The notes under the pieces are model-generated. The model worked only from the letters and a program-made list of their open reading frames with translations. It was not told where the DNA came from and did no database searches. Source: a bacterium (GTDB lineage: Bacteria; CSSED10-310; JAJRTK01). Taken from it: a DNA stretch of 10,205 bases. The position numbers and the translations under genes were made by a program. Shown one piece after another: positions 3,046-10,205 of this stretch. Each line of letters starts with the position of its first letter. Position 1 is the stretch's first letter. The stretch spans positions 1-10,205 of the forward strand of contig JAJRTK010000460.1 in assembly GCA_024278345.1 (NCBI GenBank), read 5' to 3'.

Positions 3046-3843
3046 ATGACGGGTTTTCAGATTCCCATCTGGAGAGCGCACCTGCAATCAGCGATTCAGA
3101 ACCTGGTGGTCCTGGCGCCATTTCTTCTGTCCGACAGGTTGGGGGAACTCCGTTTCTGGGGGATGGTCCTGGCCGGATATGGTTTCTTGACAGCCCTCTC
3201 TGTACTCCACGCGCTTCTTCTTCGGCAACCCAGGAGCCGCCTTCGAGGGGTTGCCTTCGGTTTTGCCTACGGCCTGCTCTTGGGCGGCGCCTTTTCCCTG
3301 GAGCCGACCTTTGGGGGAATTGCTCTTGCCTACACGCTTCTCGCCCTTTTCAACGGACTCCTTGGCCGGCGGGTGGTTGTTGTGGATGTCATCGCAATTT
3401 CCATGTCGGTGGGACTCAAGGGGCTGGGGGGCGTTGCTCTTCTGGGCGAAACCGCCTCGGTGTGGGGGCTCATCTGCCTCTTCATGGGGGCCTGCACCGT
3501 GGCCATGGGGCAGCGGCGAAACGAGATTATCCACCAGGGCCACCAGCTTCGGAAGGTGCTCGACCAGTACACACCAAAGCTCCTAGACCAGATGCTGTCC
3601 GTGGTGACCTCGTCAACTCTGGTTGCCTACGCCCTCTACACGCTGGATGCCGGGAATGGCCAGCCCAGCGAGTCCTTGGTCTATTCGGCCTTTCTTGTGA
3701 ACTTCGGCCTCTTTCGCTATCTCTTCCTGGTCTACCGCCGGGATATGAGCTGCGGCGCCGAGCTTGCCGTAATCCGGGACCCGCAATTGGTCGGCACATT
3801 GGCTCTATGGGGAACTTTTTTGTTCGGAATCCACAATGTCTAG
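3046..3843 (+). CDS. UbiA-superfamily membrane protein, divergent paralog lacking the Asp-rich catalytic motif
   Basis: Predicted 265-residue polytopic inner-membrane protein, clearly homologous to the protein encoded immediately downstream. The best match is the C-terminal part: QYTPKLLDQMLSVVT (174-188) here against QYSPELLDQMISVVT there, with 18 of 26 positions identical across the block through LYT. The block around VVVVDV (110-115) matches the second UbiA motif and keeps D114. The first UbiA motif, NDxxDxxxD, and the following HPxKxxRP are missing: the matching stretch reads SVLHALLLRQPRSRLRG (52-68), and the spacing to D114 is about 17 residues shorter than in the neighbour. The N-terminal RPKQWTKN is also degraded (AHLQSAIQN). 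The other two frames do not contain the lost motif, so a frameshift is not the explanation. AAAGGA at 3031-3036 precedes the ATG by nine bases. The stop overlaps the next gene by eight bases. Probably a non-catalytic partner or an altered-specificity enzyme; the function is unknown. Confidence 0.8.
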   Translation: MTGFQIPIWRAHLQSAIQNLVVLAPFLLSDRLGELRFWGMVLAGYGFLTALSVLHALLLRQPRSRLRGVAFGFAYGLLLGGAFSLEPTFGGIALAYTLLALFNGLLGRRVVVVDVIAISMSVGLKGLGGVALLGETASVWGLICLFMGACTVAMGQRRNEIIHQGHQLRKVLDQYTPKLLDQMLSVVTSSTLVAYALYTLDAGNGQPSESLVYSAFLVNFGLFRYLFLVYRRDMSCGAELAVIRDPQLVGTLALWGTFLFGIHNV

Positions 3844-4804
3844 GGAGACGATCTTGCCATCATCGGAACACGCGGATGCGCAGCCGGTAGAAAAGAGCAT
3901 AGCCCCCCGAGGCTCGAGATCCCCGGGATCTCTTCCGGGCGCTGTTCTACGGAGCTGCCGGCCCAAGCAATGGACGAAGAACGGCTTCCTGTTTGCCGCG
4001 CTCCTTTTCGCCCAAGAATATGGCGACTCGGCACAGATTTTGCGCGTCGTGGCCGCCTTCTTTGCCTTCTCCGCCCTGGCCGGAGCCGTCTACCTCGTCA
4101 ACGACATCTTGGACTTGGAAAAGGACCGGCTCCACCCAAGAAAATGTCGCCGCCCCATCGCCTCGGGACAGCTCAAACCTCGCGAAGCCGCCGTGGCAGC
4201 CTTTCTCTTGGCCTCCGGAGCCCTCGTGGCCGCCTTCGTCTTGGCGCAAGCTTTCGCCTTGGTAGCGGCCATCTACCTGGGCACCAATCTGGCCTATTCG
4301 TTGGGCCTCAAAAACCGCGTGATCTTCGATGTCTTCATTATTGCCCTCGGTTTTGTTCTTCGAGTCATCGCCGGAGCCCTGGTGATCCACGTTCCCATCT
4401 CACCCTGGCTTCTTATCTGCACCATGCAACTCGCCCTCTTCCTGGCCCTTTGCAAGCGCCGTCACGAGCTTCTGCTCATGGACGAGGAAGCCTCCTCCAC
4501 CAGGAAAGTCCTGAGCCAATATAGCCCCGAGCTCCTGGATCAGATGATCTCAGTGGTCACCGCTTCTTCTCTCATGTCGTACTCCCTCTACACGGTGAAC
4601 CCCGACGTACAGCTCCGCCAGCACACCACGAATCTCCACTTGACCATCCCCTTCGTCCTCTTCGGCATCCTCCGCTACCTCTACCTGGTCTACAAGAAGA
4701 ACCTGGGAGGCAGCCCGGAGCTGGTTCTCCTCAAAGATCTCCCCATGATCATCGATATTCTCCTCTGGGTCGTGGCCGTGCTTTTGGTCCTGACTTTTGG
4801 CTGA
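3836..4804 (+). CDS. Decaprenyl-phosphate phosphoribosyltransferase (UbiA superfamily)
   Basis: Predicted 322-residue integral membrane prenyl-phosphate transferase. Family members move 5-phosphoribose from PRPP onto a polyprenyl phosphate, giving the lipid-linked pentose donor used in envelope polysaccharides (EC 2.4.2.45 in mycobacteria). Signatures seen: RPKQWTKN at 42-49; the Asp-rich NDILDLEKD at 89-97 that binds Mg-pyrophosphate; HPRKCRRPIASG at 100-111, diagnostic of this subfamily rather than of UbiA/COX10 quinone or haem enzymes; and YSLGLKNRVIFDV at 154-166 followed by GFVLRVIAGA. About eight or nine hydrophobic segments follow one another from residue 50. An unusually long hydrophilic, probably disordered N-terminus of about 38 residues precedes the RPKQWTKN motif. 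The ATG lies within the last codons of the preceding paralog (8-base overlap), implying translational coupling. The polyprenyl chain length and the final glycan are not evident from the window. Confidence 0.88.
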   Translation: MSRETILPSSEHADAQPVEKSIAPRGSRSPGSLPGAVLRSCRPKQWTKNGFLFAALLFAQEYGDSAQILRVVAAFFAFSALAGAVYLVNDILDLEKDRLHPRKCRRPIASGQLKPREAAVAAFLLASGALVAAFVLAQAFALVAAIYLGTNLAYSLGLKNRVIFDVFIIALGFVLRVIAGALVIHVPISPWLLICTMQLALFLALCKRRHELLLMDEEASSTRKVLSQYSPELLDQMISVVTASSLMSYSLYTVNPDVQLRQHTTNLHLTIPFVLFGILRYLYLVYKKNLGGSPELVLLKDLPMIIDILLWVVAVLLVLTFG

Positions 4805-4857
4805 CTCCTCTCCCATCGAACAACGCCCAACTCCTGTCTCAGGCAACTTCCGGCCTT

Positions 4858-4886
4858 TTGACACCTCAAGGCTAGAAGGAGACGAT
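4858..4886 (+). promoter_or_regulatory. Candidate promoter ahead of the molybdate transporter genes
   Basis: A perfect TTGACA hexamer (4858-4863) lies in the 199-base gap after the phosphoribosyltransferase gene. At a 17-base spacing the -10 position reads GACGAT, only three of six matches, so the case is weak. The hexamer lies in the loop of a short hairpin (GCCTT at 4853-4857 with AAGGC at 4868-4872). No ModE-type inverted repeat was recognised in the gap. Confidence 0.22.
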
Positions 4887-5003
4887 CCCGAATCTTGTTT
4901 CTTTGTGTTGGGTTCCGCTCTCGTCGCTCGCAGCCGCTCGCGCCGTTCGCCCTGGAATGCACATCCCGATTCCGGGGCCGCTTGGAATTGGCCGTGGGCC
5001 TTG

Positions 5004-6707
5004 GTGCGGGGATTGGCCTGGCTGGCCCTCCTCTTGCCCGGGTCCGTTGCCGATTCCGCGGAGCTCGTGATCTCAGCGGCTGCCAGCCTGACGGACGTCA
5101 TGGGGGAGCTGGAGGATCTTTACGAAAAAACCGCCCACCAGGATCTCGTCTTGAACTTCGCAGCCACGGGGGTTCTCAAGACCCAGATCGAAAATGGTGC
5201 CCCCTGCGACCTCTTCGTGGCCGCCAACTCCCGCGAACCGGAATCGCTCTTTCGCCAGGGCCTCGTGGAAGCCCCCGGAGTTTTCGCCACGGGCCGGCTA
5301 GTGCTGGCGATCCAGGCAGCCAGCGGGCGACAGCACGGCGGTTTGACTCCCCGAGTTCGGCAAGTAACCCCGGCTGATCCCGCCGGCCTGCCGTTGGGGA
5401 GTGGCGAGGATGGTGTGAGGAGCGGTGGCGGTCTCGCGCCGGATGCCAGCGGCACCGAACCCCCAAAAAGAACGGATCTTGACCGGAATCCCGCCCTGCC
5501 CCGAGAGATCCTTAGGTTGTCCCGCCTTGCCATGGGATCCCCGGGGACCGTCCCGGCAGGCCGATACGCCTTGGAAGCCCTTCGGTCCCTGGGAGTCTGG
5601 GGAGCCGTGGAACCAAGAATCATCTACGCCGAAGATGTTCGCCAGGTCCTTCACTATGTCCAAACCGGTGTCGTGGATGGTGGGATACTCTACGAGACCG
5701 ACCTCCTTGGCCGGGCAGGAGTCCAAATGGCCTTTTCCTTTCCCTCTGAAAGCCACGATTCCATTGACTACACTTTCGCCGTGGTGTTGGGAAGCCCAAA
5801 TCTTCACCCTGCGCGGCGGTTCGCGGAGTTTCTCTTTTCTCCGGCTGCACGGCGGGTGTTGGAGCGCCGGGGGTTCGTGCCGGTGCGGTCCGCTGAGGCT
5901 CCTTCACCGGGATGGATCCACCGGGACCCGGTGGGTTCGAAGACGCCTGTTGTCGGGGCGGAACCGGGCCAGAAGCCGGGGAGTTCGGAGACCGACGGAG
6001 TCCCGTTGAGCCCAGGAATTGACCGCGAACCTCCAGTTTCGGGGCCGGCACCCTTAACGCCGCTCTGGCTTTCTTTGCAGGTGGCCCTCGCCGCCACGCT
6101 CATCGATCTGGTGGCCGGTTTGTGGTTGGCCCGGCTGCTGGCCTTCCGCGGGTTCCGGTTCAAGCTGTTGTTGGAGACTTTGGTGGATCTACCTCTCGTG
6201 CTTCCGCCCACGGTGTTGGGTTTTTTTCTTCTCCTTCTTTTGGCTCCCACGGCTCCGGTGGGCCGGTTCTTGGGCGCCGCCGGTGCGCCGGTGGTTTTTC
6301 ATCTCGCGGGCGCCATCTTTTGTTCCGCCATCGTGGCCCTGCCTCTCTTTGTCAGGACGGCTCGGTCCGCACTTGAGGCTGTCCCTGCTCATTATCTGGA
6401 GGTGGCCCGGGCTTTTGGAGCAAGCGAGAGAAGGCTCTTTCTTCAGGTCGTCCTACCTCTCTGCCGGCGAGGGATCGTAGCCGGCGCCCTCCTGTGCTTC
6501 GCCCGTGCCCTGGGCGAGTTCGGGGCGACCTTGATGGTGGCGGGCAACCTGCCGGGCAGGACCCAAACCTTGCCGCTGGCCATCTATTCCAGGGTCTTTG
6601 AGGGCCGTTACGCGGAGGCCTGGATTCTCGTGAGTCTCACGCTGCTTGTGAGCCTGTTGGCCGTGGGGCTGGGGCGGGCGCTCAACCAGGAGCCGAAGGA
6701 GACGTAA
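5004..6707 (+). CDS. Molybdate ABC transporter, fused binding protein (ModA) and permease (ModB)
   Basis: Predicted 567-residue single-chain fusion. Residues 1-19 look like a signal or anchor segment (MRGLAWLALLLPGSVADSA), then ModA (about 19-294) begins AELVISAAASLTDV with S28 of the oxyanion-binding AASL motif. IENGAPCDLFVAAN, GSPGTVPAGRYALEALRSLG and the GILYETD Tyr (Y230) are also typical. The second oxyanion-binding Ser region reads FAATGVL, so Thr may replace Ser. A Gly/Pro/Arg-rich insertion of about 60 residues (107-166) interrupts ModA, and a Pro/Gly-rich linker (295-353) joins it to ModB. ModB has five hydrophobic helices (near 354, 388, 430, 491 and 539) and the EAA loop EVARAFGASERRLFLQVVLP ahead of the fourth. 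GTG 5004 is chosen because it gives a compact signal sequence; the open frame extends to TTG 4797, but that part has lower third-position GC and no domain. The stop TAA overlaps the modC ATG by one base. Confidence 0.85.
   Translation: MRGLAWLALLLPGSVADSAELVISAAASLTDVMGELEDLYEKTAHQDLVLNFAATGVLKTQIENGAPCDLFVAANSREPESLFRQGLVEAPGVFATGRLVLAIQAASGRQHGGLTPRVRQVTPADPAGLPLGSGEDGVRSGGGLAPDASGTEPPKRTDLDRNPALPREILRLSRLAMGSPGTVPAGRYALEALRSLGVWGAVEPRIIYAEDVRQVLHYVQTGVVDGGILYETDLLGRAGVQMAFSFPSESHDSIDYTFAVVLGSPNLHPARRFAEFLFSPAARRVLERRGFVPVRSAEAPSPGWIHRDPVGSKTPVVGAEPGQKPGSSETDGVPLSPGIDREPPVSGPAPLTPLWLSLQVALAATLIDLVAGLWLARLLAFRGFRFKLLLETLVDLPLVLPPTVLGFFLLLLLAPTAPVGRFLGAAGAPVVFHLAGAIFCSAIVALPLFVRTARSALEAVPAHYLEVARAFGASERRLFLQVVLPLCRRGIVAGALLCFARALGEFGATLMVAGNLPGRTQTLPLAIYSRVFEGRYAEAWILVSLTLLVSLLAVGLGRALNQEPKET
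6696..6701 (+). promoter_or_regulatory. Ribosome binding site of modC
   Basis: AAGGAG, five bases before ATG 6707-6709 and inside the last codons of the ModA-ModB gene. It fixes the modC start, and with the TAATG stop/start overlap it indicates coupled translation. Confidence 0.7.
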
Positions 6708-7828
6708 TGGGGCGATTCCAAATGGAGATCGAGTTCCAACGGGGGACCTTTTCTCTGGGCGTTCGACTGGAGTCCCGGAGCGGCCGCCTCGCTCTTTTGG
6801 GCCCGTCAGGCGCGGGAAAATCAAGCATCCTGGCTGCCCTGGCGGGGTTATTGCCCGTGGCGAAGGGACGGATTCTTGTGGCGGATGCCACTTGGCTCGA
6901 TACAGGCGCTGGGATAGACTGGCCGCCCAGCCGCAGGCGAATAGGAATCGTCACCCAGCAGCCGTCGCTCTTTCCTCACATGAGCCTGCGGGAAAACGTC
7001 GCTTTCGCCCTGCGCTGCCTGCCGGCGGAGATCCGGCCATCCCGAAGGGAGGCCCTTCGGCGGGCGGCGGAGCAGCTCGATCATCTGGGGCTGAGCGCCT
7101 TGGCCCAGCGCCGGCCGGGGGACGTTTCTGGTGGCCAAGCAAGACGCGCCGAGCTGGCCCGGGCATTGGTGGCCGAGCCAAGCCTTCTCCTTCTTGACGA
7201 ACCCTTTACCGGCTTGGACCCGGCGACGAAAAACGCCACGGAAAAAGCGTTCCGCAATTTATTGGCGGCCAGTCCTGTCAACTGGCTGCTGGTCACTCAC
7301 GACCGCCAGGAAGCTCTGGGCCTGGCGGATGAGGTCGGGATTGTCATCGACGGCCGCGTCCGACAGGTGGGCCGGGCCGAGGAAGTCTTTTTCCGCCCCG
7401 TCGATCCGGAGGTCGCACGGTTTTTGGGCGGGGAGCTCGCCTGGCAAGGTCGCGTTCTTCGCTCGGATGCCGACATGACCGAGGTCGTCGTGGGAACCAA
7501 ACACCTCTGGGCTGCCACCGTCGTGCCGCTGGAACCGGAAACCACCGTCGTGGCCACTCTCAGGCCCGAGGATGTGACTCTCTGGTCCCGGCCCGTGCCC
7601 GCCGGCGCCTCTTCCAGGAACCAGTTCGAAGCTTGCGTCGTGGAGACGGAGAACCGCGGGCTGCACGTGCTCGTCCGCCTCGATGCCGGTTTTCCCATTG
7701 CCGCGCTCCTAACCCGCGGCGCGGCCTCCGAGCTTGAGCCCGGGATCGGAGCAAACCTTGGAGTGAGCTTCAAGGCGATGAGGCTTCACCTGATTCCCCA
7801 GGTAAAACTGCTGAGGACCGAGGATTAG
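6707..7828 (+). CDS. modC: Molybdate ABC transporter ATP-binding protein
   Basis: Predicted 373-residue cytosolic ATPase that powers molybdate (possibly tungstate) import through the ModB part of the preceding fusion. Walker A is GPSGAGKSS at 32-40, the Q-loop is around Q84-Q85, the ABC signature is VSGGQ at 140-144, Walker B is LLLLDEP at 160-166, the D-loop is GLD at 169-171 and the switch histidine is H198. The signature starts with Val instead of the usual Leu. Residues about 285-370 (LRPEDVTLW through VSFKAMRLHLIP) form a C-terminal MOP/TOBE domain, which binds oxyanion and is characteristic of ModC among importer ATPases. The length is usual for ModC. No modE regulator or molybdenum-cofactor gene is nearby. 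Substrate choice between molybdate and tungstate cannot be read from the sequence. Confidence 0.92.
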   Translation: MGRFQMEIEFQRGTFSLGVRLESRSGRLALLGPSGAGKSSILAALAGLLPVAKGRILVADATWLDTGAGIDWPPSRRRIGIVTQQPSLFPHMSLRENVAFALRCLPAEIRPSRREALRRAAEQLDHLGLSALAQRRPGDVSGGQARRAELARALVAEPSLLLLDEPFTGLDPATKNATEKAFRNLLAASPVNWLLVTHDRQEALGLADEVGIVIDGRVRQVGRAEEVFFRPVDPEVARFLGGELAWQGRVLRSDADMTEVVVGTKHLWAATVVPLEPETTVVATLRPEDVTLWSRPVPAGASSRNQFEACVVETENRGLHVLVRLDAGFPIAALLTRGAASELEPGIGANLGVSFKAMRLHLIPQVKLLRTED

Positions 7829-8007: not shown

Positions 8008-8415
8008 TTATTCGGGTTCAGTGGCAATGGCGAGTCCGGTGGCTCCGGCTTGTCTTGCGGCATCCATGACCTTGACGATGATGCCATGTTGGGTCTTGGT
8101 GTCCGCCGACAGGATCACCTCTTTCTTATTTCGCTTGGCCAGTTGTTCCTTGAGCTCCCTTTTCAGGTTTTCCAAGGAAACAGGCTGGTCTCCAAGAAAA
8201 AGCTTGCCATCCGGGCCAACGAAGAGGCGGATCTGTTGAGGCGGCGTCGTCTCCGCGGAGGAGGACTCAGGCAGAGTCAGCTCGATTCCCGGTTGTTCCA
8301 GAAACGTTGTGGTCACGGCGAAAAAGATGAGGAGCAGAAAAACGACATCGATGAGGGCGGAAATATCCAGCGTCACCCTTCGCCGGCGCTGTGCCCTTGG
8401 TGTCCTGAGGCTCAT
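8008..8415 (-). CDS. exbD: Biopolymer transport protein ExbD
   Basis: Predicted 135-residue inner-membrane protein with one transmembrane helix, part of the ExbB-ExbD proton-driven motor that energises TonB. A basic cytoplasmic N-terminus (residues 1-13) leads into LDISALIDVVFLLLIFFAVTT (16-36). D23 is at the position of the essential proton-carrying aspartate of the family (D25 in E. coli ExbD). The periplasmic part carries the usual VILSADTKTQHGIIVKVMDAARQAG near the end. Its ATG shares an ATGA with the exbB stop (four-base overlap), with GAGG seven bases upstream, so it is translated together with exbB. TolR is the main alternative, but the upstream tonB gene favours ExbD. Confidence 0.9.
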   Translation of the reverse strand: MSLRTPRAQRRRRVTLDISALIDVVFLLLIFFAVTTTFLEQPGIELTLPESSSAETTPPQQIRLFVGPDGKLFLGDQPVSLENLKRELKEQLAKRNKKEVILSADTKTQHGIIVKVMDAARQAGATGLAIATEPE

Positions 8416-9104
8416 GGCAGGGCCTCTGATACTGGCTCGGCGGGCGGCGGTGCGGCTGAGAGAGCAGACGGGGGGGAGGGATTGGCACGGGACAAAAGTC
8501 TGAGAAGGCGCAAGACTTCGCCCTCCATTTCCAGGAGAATGCCTTCGGCACGATCGCTAAAGAGGTTGTAGAAGACTAGAGAGGGGATGGCGACGATGAG
8601 ACCGAAAGCCGTGGTGAGGAGGGCTTGGGAAAGGCCGCCCGAGAGTTGCTTGGCCTGCCCTGTTCCAACGTCGCTGATCACCTGGAAGACGTCGATCATT
8701 CCGATGACCGTTCCCAATAACCCCAGCAGTGGAGCGATGCTGGCGATGGTGCCCAGCACCCCAAGAAACCGTTCGAGCCTGGGGATTTGTTGGCGTCCGG
8801 CATCTTCCAGGACCTCCTTGAGTTCGGACCGGGGCATGGACCGATTCTCGAGCCCCACGATGATGAGTTCGGAGATGACGGAGTTCGAGTTCCGGGCAAT
8901 TTGGATCGCTTCATCGACTTTGCCGACTCCTATGAGTGAATCGATATAGGGTCGAAGATCTCGGCGCAGAAGGCGTTTTCGCCGCAGTATTATCGCACGT
9001 TCAAGGATGATTGTGGCCGAGAGGATCGAGCAAATGGCCAGCGGGATCATCACCGGCCCGCCGGCGCGGAAGAGCTCCACTGCTTTGTCGAGAATCTGTT
9101 CCAT
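8412..9104 (-). CDS. exbB: Biopolymer transport protein ExbB (MotA/TolQ/ExbB family)
   Basis: Predicted 230-residue inner-membrane protein that forms the pentameric channel around ExbD and converts proton flow into movement of TonB. Three membrane helices are visible: about 17-38, 112-140 and 157-181. The family motif APLLGLLGTVIGM (124-136) holds T132, and SQALLTTAFGLIVAIP (159-174) holds T165; these match the conserved polar channel threonines of ExbB/TolQ. The C-terminus ends in an Ala/Pro/Ser-rich stretch of about 25 residues. It lies 83 bases downstream of tonB and overlaps exbD by four bases. The ribosome binding site is weak (AGGA about 12 bases from the ATG). Confidence 0.9.
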   Translation of the reverse strand: MEQILDKAVELFRAGGPVMIPLAICSILSATIILERAIILRRKRLLRRDLRPYIDSLIGVGKVDEAIQIARNSNSVISELIIVGLENRSMPRSELKEVLEDAGRQQIPRLERFLGVLGTIASIAPLLGLLGTVIGMIDVFQVISDVGTGQAKQLSGGLSQALLTTAFGLIVAIPSLVFYNLFSDRAEGILLEMEGEVLRLLRLLSRANPSPPSALSAAPPPAEPVSEALP

Positions 9105-9187
9105 CGGTTTGTGGGGTCCTGGGGAGAGGGTGGAGGGCGAGCTGAGGGGGGAGAGCCGTAGGTTGTCGGGTTCGGGGAGATTGCCGC

Positions 9188-10096
9188 CTAGGGAGGGACC
9201 GACACGTTGTAGAAGAAACGAAAAGTCACGCCGACGCGTTCCTTTTTGACCGCCTTGGGCAGCGGTGGCAGAGGGGCGGCACCGCGAACGGCGTTGAGGG
9301 CCGAGTTATCCAGTGATTCCCAGCCCGAGCTCTTGGAGACGTGCAGATCTTCGATTCCGCCGGAGCGGTTGATGCTGAACTTGAGCTCGGTAACCCCTTT
9401 CGCGAAGTGGCGGGCGACGTACGGGATGAACCAGGCGGCTTTTGTCCGTAGGTAGAGGATGCGGCCATAAGGGCCGAGCTCGTCGGCCTGCGTGTCGAAA
9501 GAAAGGGCTCCCATGTCGGTGTTGCCGCCTCGGGGCGCTTGGAGCTGACTGGGCTCGAAGATCCGGGAACGCCGTGCCTGCTTGAGTTTCCTGTACTGTC
9601 GATCAAAGCGAGTTTGGGGGACCGGAGGCCGGATGTCGGGTTTGGGGGCCTTTGCCGCGGCTGAGTGGCCTTGAGTCTTGGGAGGCCTCTGAAGCGTGGC
9701 TTTTGAAGGGGCCTCCTTTCGTGGCGGCCGGACTTTGGGTTGTGGAGGGCTGGGAGGGCTTGGCGGGGGCGAAGAATCTGGCGCGGTGGCGATACGTGGA
9801 GCCTTGGTTTCTCCCTCACTGTGGGGCCTTTCCTCTGCCCGTGGGTCGGGTTTTGGATTCTGGGCCTTCCGGTTTTTGTCACTGAGGACCGGAGCCTCGA
9901 CGGGATCCTTAGTCTCCGGCGCTTCGACGAACTCGAAGCGAAGAGGCCGGCTCCGTTCTTTTTCCGGAGTGCGACCCGCAAAAAAAGAAATTGAGTACCG
10001 GGCGGAAAGAGCCCAAAGAAGGACAATGTGCAGAAGAAGCGCCAAGAGGAGGGCGGCCCAGAACGGTAAGTTGTCTCTTCGTGTACCCTGGCCCAT
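9188..10096 (-). CDS. tonB: Energy transducer TonB
   Basis: Predicted 302-residue protein that spans the periplasm and passes energy from ExbB-ExbD to outer-membrane TonB-dependent receptors. A short cytoplasmic N-terminus is followed by one membrane anchor (about 11-31) with H23 in LLLHIVLLW, comparable to the conserved transmembrane His of TonB. A Pro/Lys/Arg-rich spacer (about 42-175) includes PPPSPPSPP. The C-terminal TonB domain (about 208-300) contains GVTELKFSINRSGGIEDL, SALNAVRGAAPLPPLP and VTFRFFYN. ATG 10096 is used because it gives a normal short leader; an in-frame GTG at 10135 would add 13 charged residues (PFHDQQREPKRV), and neither start has a strong ribosome binding site. First gene of tonB-exbB-exbD. 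No receptor or siderophore gene is in view, so the transported substrate is unknown. Confidence 0.88.
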   Translation of the reverse strand: MGQGTRRDNLPFWAALLLALLLHIVLLWALSARYSISFFAGRTPEKERSRPLRFEFVEAPETKDPVEAPVLSDKNRKAQNPKPDPRAEERPHSEGETKAPRIATAPDSSPPPSPPSPPQPKVRPPRKEAPSKATLQRPPKTQGHSAAAKAPKPDIRPPVPQTRFDRQYRKLKQARRSRIFEPSQLQAPRGGNTDMGALSFDTQADELGPYGRILYLRTKAAWFIPYVARHFAKGVTELKFSINRSGGIEDLHVSKSSGWESLDNSALNAVRGAAPLPPLPKAVKKERVGVTFRFFYNVSVPP

Positions 10097-10205
10097 GACA
10101 CGTTTCGGCTCTCGCTGCTGGTCGTGGAATGGCACGGCTCGCCTACAGGCCTTCGATCCGGCCAGAGAGCGGTGCGGAGGGGATAGCTCCCGTGTGCGGC
10201 GGCGA
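10097..10205 (-). other. Upstream region of tonB, nothing recognised
   Basis: About 110 bases to the window edge. It holds the alternative tonB GTG start at 10135 and would be expected to hold the tonB promoter. No Fur-box-like AT-rich inverted repeat or sigma70 hexamer pair was recognised in this GC-rich stretch. Confidence 0.3.

Follow-up and report, generated by a model that had tools for sequence, protein, structure and literature searches.

Two homologous UbiA-fold genes in tandem

The window, that is, the whole 10,205-nt stretch of DNA analysed, comes from a metagenome-assembled genome (G000 among the eight sampled from the small phylum CSSED10-310). Two intact, homologous ORFs lie in it at the coordinates given by the preliminary description: DEG, encoding a UbiA-fold protein devoid of catalytic motifs, and, directly downstream, FULL, encoding a homologue of polyprenyl-phosphate phosphoribosyltransferases (Table 1). 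The 8-base overlap reported between them is correct for an ATG start of FULL at 3836; the alternative TTG start, plausible in view of the AGGGAG ahead of it, would give a short gap and no overlap.

Table 1. Features of the DEG and FULL genes (window coordinates)
Feature	Position	Strand	Remarks
DEG, 265-aa UbiA-fold protein without catalytic motifs	3046..3843	+	nine TM helices predicted
DEG Q18 codon, site of the Rv3806c K28 equivalent	3097..3099	+	Gln in 3/3 DEGs, Lys in 48/48 catalytic homologues
DEG short loop (around residues 60-66), NDxxDxxxD/HPxKxxRP loop of FULL missing	3223..3243	+
DEG K125 codon, Rv3806c R160 equivalent	3418..3420	+	Lys in 3/3 DEGs, Arg in 48/48 catalytic homologues
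DEG TM7 block DQYTPKLLDQMLSVVTSSTLVAYALYT	3562..3642	+	best-retained segment; equivalent of the Rv3806c trimer-axis helix
FULL, 322-aa intact polyprenyl-phosphate phosphoribosyltransferase homologue	3836..4804	+	alternative start TTG at 3854
FULL RPKQWTKN	3959..3982	+	R22 and K28 equivalents of Rv3806c
FULL NDILDLEKD	4100..4126	+	N73/D77 Mg site of Rv3806c
FULL HPRKCRRP	4133..4156	+	K87/R90 pyrophosphate site of Rv3806c
FULL TM7 block SQYSPELLDQMISVVTASSLMSYSLYT	4514..4594	+

The homology of DEG to the family far exceeds chance: it shares 38% identity with FULL over 190 residues (E 1.1e-26) and matches NCBIfam NF008977 with E 1.5e-24, at 86.9 bits below the curated cut-off of 234 and with no Pfam match. 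Paralogy had been proposed from the block starting QY(T/S)P, and 18 of its 26 residues are indeed identical between the two proteins; only 9 of these 18 share the same codon, which rules out a recent gene conversion of this TM7 block. By codon use DEG is a coding gene: random synonymous codons score −0.199 (sd 0.041), the gene itself 0.139.

FULL as a probable phosphoribosyltransferase

Products of UbiA-fold enzymes include quinones, hemes, chlorophylls and lipid-linked pentoses. FULL looks like an ordinary member of its enzyme family. It passes the decaprenyl-phosphate phosphoribosyltransferase model NF008977 (284.1 bits versus the cut-off of 234) and keeps NDxxDxxxD, HPxKxxRP and RPxQWxKN, as had been described. 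Its best solved relative is Rv3806c, the decaprenyl-phosphate phosphoribosyltransferase of M. tuberculosis (PDB 8j8j, 8j8k; PMC10994848), with E 3.1e-40 for the sequence and Z 31.9 for the FULL model; fold, motifs and substrate residues are alike, and the Rv3806c ligands that were tested are present in FULL, the variable sites Q135 and Y157 being occupied by N and F. FULL probably moves 5-phosphoribose from PRPP onto a polyprenyl phosphate, and its lipid-linked product would serve as donor when pentofuranose is added to surface glycans. Ribose is likelier than arabinose as the final sugar, since no PF04030 (DprE1-type) match is found in the eight genomes of the phylum, several of which are incomplete.

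FULL also matches the UbiA-family PPPRS module of Citrobacter youngae ORF15, a polyprenyl phosphoribofuranose synthase (PMC11127046), and differs from ORF15 and the three-component pentofuranose systems described there in having no fused HAD phosphatase domain; no dead paralogue is described for those systems. In four genomes of the phylum (G004 to G007) a PMT_2-like or related GT-C gene is found in the vicinity of FULL, which fits the three-component systems of PMC11127046. At these loci (L036, L073, L074 and L075) the neighbours comprise a gene for a TPR/PD40-type predicted lipoprotein and one for a large PMT_2-like membrane protein, homologues of the latter in G000 and G001 being unlinked to FULL.

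Loss of the active site and retention of the fold in DEG

All three motifs are missing from DEG, as first noticed, and where the FULL model joins helices 2 and 3 by a loop of residues 93-114, including a short helix, that of DEG has only residues 61-65, a difference of 17. The second-motif Asp said to be kept is present as D114; since the G001 homologue has Asn at this position and Rv3806c has Glu, it does not count as a catalytic Asp shared by the whole family. When DEG and its two counterparts from other genomes (see below) are mapped on Rv3806c, the equivalents of R22, K28, Y70, N73, D77, K87, R90, Y138 and R160 are lost or unmaintained, residue placement within the shortened loop depending on the alignment. 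The Mg/PRPP residues (N73, D77, R22, K28, K87 and R90 equivalents) are thus not preserved in the three DEGs, none of which has an acidic metal ligand or the K/R cluster left. In Rv3806c, mutation of most of the residues listed strongly cuts activity (R160 is not discussed) and K28 is the Lys that touches both substrates (PMC10994848). Two of the three DEGs keep the equivalent of K191, which contacts the lipid phosphate; the window protein has Gln instead. An N159/K125/Q18 set is common to the three; no further new conserved polar cluster was found among these sequences, which are too few for firmness. Since the PRPP/Mg site and the Lys contacting both substrates are lost, DEG should not be able to perform phosphoribosyl transfer, the reaction of FULL.

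The fold appears to be intact. An AlphaFold2 model of DEG (pLDDT 89.5, pTM 0.87) shows the UbiA arrangement with its nine TM helices, superposing on 8j8j with Z 23.1 (3.3 Å over 256 residues) and on the archaeal UbiA 4tq6 with Z 19.8; catalytic homologues were plentiful in the underlying alignment, which may favour their fold. DEG is therefore like Rv3806c in its nine-helix fold and in TM7 and unlike it in having neither the Mg/PRPP site nor the K28 Lys. Catalytic residues lost and fold retained is what a non-catalytic subunit would present, and the suggestion that DEG is a pseudoenzyme is supported by this combination and by the persistence of the protein in three families.

Uneven conservation along the DEG sequence

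Retention is far from uniform. For TM7, DEG-to-FULL identity is 55%, versus 66% among the FULLs of the phylum, and for TM2 plus CL1 it falls to 16% versus 49%. Corrected for conservation in the FULLs, TM7 is the best-retained segment, in the top 1% of same-width windows; the best 26-residue window corresponds to Rv 213-238 and the worst stretch, Rv 67-95, to the active site. TM7 is 63% identical among the DEGs. In Rv3806c this helix forms the trimer axis and L231W abolishes activity (PMC10994848), while turnover rises with A249G, a change at the protomer interface, which is filled with lipid. As far as the sequences tell, the DEGs keep a small residue at the T227 site and have Val or Leu at that of L231. 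Retention is moderate for TM6 and TM8, the helices in contact with the prenyl tail of the Rv3806c substrate (PMC10994848).

Because the dead copy retains the trimer helix, DEG has the appearance expected of a non-catalytic trimer subunit; retention of TM7 would be just as expected if DEG formed homotrimers or if the helix were needed for structural reasons alone. The trimer itself is known for Rv3806c only, and not for FULL. Own-genome DEG/FULL pairs are no more similar in TM6-8 than cross-genome pairs, so that there is no sign of co-adaptation between the two proteins in this region.

Distribution and origin

DEG proteins occur in G000, G001 and G004, representing three families of CSSED10-310, with intact frames at 29-37% mutual identity. 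A profile search returned no further DEG among 386 sampled genomes: the three score 416-443 bits and anything else at most 212, a gap inflated by the three having themselves built the profile, and sampling around other centres gave mostly the same genomes again. Scanning a genome-contig collection with a single DEG sequence gave no match; with the three-DEG alignment the matches were confined to the loci in G004 and G001 (in G001 at the catalytic or the DEG region) and to three catalytic homologues. Every intact catalytic homologue inspected in the 386 genomes and the contig scan keeps NDxxDxxxD, second or N-terminally weak matches elsewhere all have the Asp motif except one cut by a contig end, and no DEG-type homologue that retains NDxxDxxxD was encountered. 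The distribution, restricted to one phylum in the sample, is not the scattered one against which the preliminary description had warned. Decay, another of its concerns, is contradicted by the intact frames and the selectively conserved segments of proteins too divergent for dN/dS. Judged from its sequences, DEG is conserved, narrowly, and is not a product of decay.

FULL is present in all three DEG genomes, a co-occurrence that is uninformative since seven of the eight genomes of the phylum have FULL. In four of them FULL is present and DEG was not found (some being incomplete), so FULL has no general need of DEG.

In the tree the three DEGs fall on one side of a branch with 100/99 support and the FULLs of the phylum on one side of another, long-branch attraction being a caveat with DEG branches of 2.6 to 5.2 changes per column. 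Trees with a single DEG give it no settled position, and grouping the G004 DEG with the FULLs of the phylum is not rejected (p-AU 0.98). As leave-one-out profiles are inconsistent, a profile of two DEGs placing the third above all FULLs in just one of three tests, the case for a single origin is made by the tree together with the shared K-to-Q and R-to-K changes; that the DEGs form a single family is suggested by these characters and not proved.

Genomic context of DEG

Linkage to the full-length gene had been anticipated as a constant feature and is seen in two of the three genomes: DEG adjoins FULL in the window and in G001, where it lies directly upstream with a 52-nt gap, and in G004 the two are on different contigs. 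There, DEG closes a glycan-type cluster that includes a GT2 glycosyltransferase gene alongside radical SAM and methyltransferase-like ones, and overlaps the end of the radical SAM gene ahead by 4 nt. Beyond it are two large predicted membrane proteins, one of them PMT_2. At this locus (L035:730-4755) DEG comes after two radical SAM genes, of which one has a B12-binding domain.

Possible roles of DEG

We regard DEG as a conserved, catalytically dead paralogue of FULL, and give about even credence to its being a non-catalytic membrane subunit, or regulator, of that enzyme, the likeliest of the roles considered. Hetero-oligomerisation, a mixed trimer and regulation are what we infer from the comparison with Rv3806c: DEG would join a mixed trimer with FULL via TM7 and, within it, might stabilise or tune its partner. 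The more specific proposal that the working phosphoribosyltransferase is such a mixed trimer, with the dead UbiA-fold subunit setting activity or lipid choice, is tentative and in our view somewhat short of an even chance. The separation of DEG from FULL in G004 and the want of co-adaptation in TM6-8 point against a partnership.

The glycan-type run in G004, with its PMT_2 gene beyond, would suit a protein that acts apart from FULL, binding, handing over or flipping polyprenyl phosphate or a lipid-linked pentose in glycan assembly without catalysis. DEG retains helical bundle 2, on the lipid-tail side of the pocket, having dropped the PRPP side, and the moderate retention of TM6 and TM8 and the K191 equivalent of two DEGs agree with this; the other lipid-phosphate Lys, equivalent to K28, is however Gln in all three, K191 is Gln in the window DEG, the best-kept helix is TM7 and not the lipid-contacting TM6 or TM8, and two of the three copies adjoin FULL. 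We know of no UbiA-fold flippase or carrier, and we hold such a role to be unlikely. A new enzymatic function is less probable still. The preliminary description had considered a neofunctionalised enzyme acting on sugar-lipids, a reading much weakened by the loss of the diphosphate/Mg site; an intact fold and the shared N159/K125/Q18 set would leave room for a different, Mg/diphosphate-independent chemistry on polyprenyl-phosphate substrates, against which stand the disappearance of the acidic metal ligands and the K/R cluster and the failure of three sequences, too few for a firm verdict, to reveal any further conserved polar cluster beyond that set.

Very long branches and the single success in three leave-one-out tests are also what three independent degenerations of FULL duplicates would produce, each copy decaying or recently freed and functionless. 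We consider this highly improbable: frames are intact across three families despite the low mutual identity, codon use is of the coding type, TM7 is strongly conserved among DEGs, all nine helices are kept in the model, the same two replacements (K-to-Q, R-to-K) occur at invariant sites, and the DEG side of the branch is well supported, albeit with long-branch attraction possible.

Relation to known systems

The reading of DEG as a partner subunit has its closest likeness in the heterodimeric geranyl diphosphate synthases of plants, whose small subunits are catalytically inactive paralogues, some without the Asp-rich motifs, that modulate the catalytic subunit (PMC6651613). Those are soluble prenyl synthases for which the partnership is proved, unlike DEG, for which it is inferred. 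A full-text search of the open-licence literature for UbiA and pseudoenzyme together found no paper; within that literature, a pseudoenzyme subunit appears as a feature of soluble prenyl synthases and no description of one was found for UbiA-fold enzymes. Accounts of Rv3806c give it as a homotrimer and mention no dead paralogue; breaking the trimer abolishes its activity (PMC10994848), and this raises the question of why a trimer is required; a natural dead copy with the trimer helix would offer a direct route to why a phosphoribosyltransferase must be trimeric.

Other genes of the window

Downstream of FULL, a 636-aa ORF (4797-6707, +) matches the molybdate-binding ModA and the permease ModB end to end, an apparent ModA-ModB fusion, and is followed by an ABC ATPase with a TOBE domain (6707-7828, +). 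A pseudouridine synthase gene beside ScpB (1341-2866, −) and a TonB-ExbB-ExbD set (8008-10135, −) are ordinary neighbours. The first ORF (115-1320, +) encodes a thioredoxin-reductase-like FAD/NAD(P) oxidoreductase scoring well under the curated cut-offs of named families.
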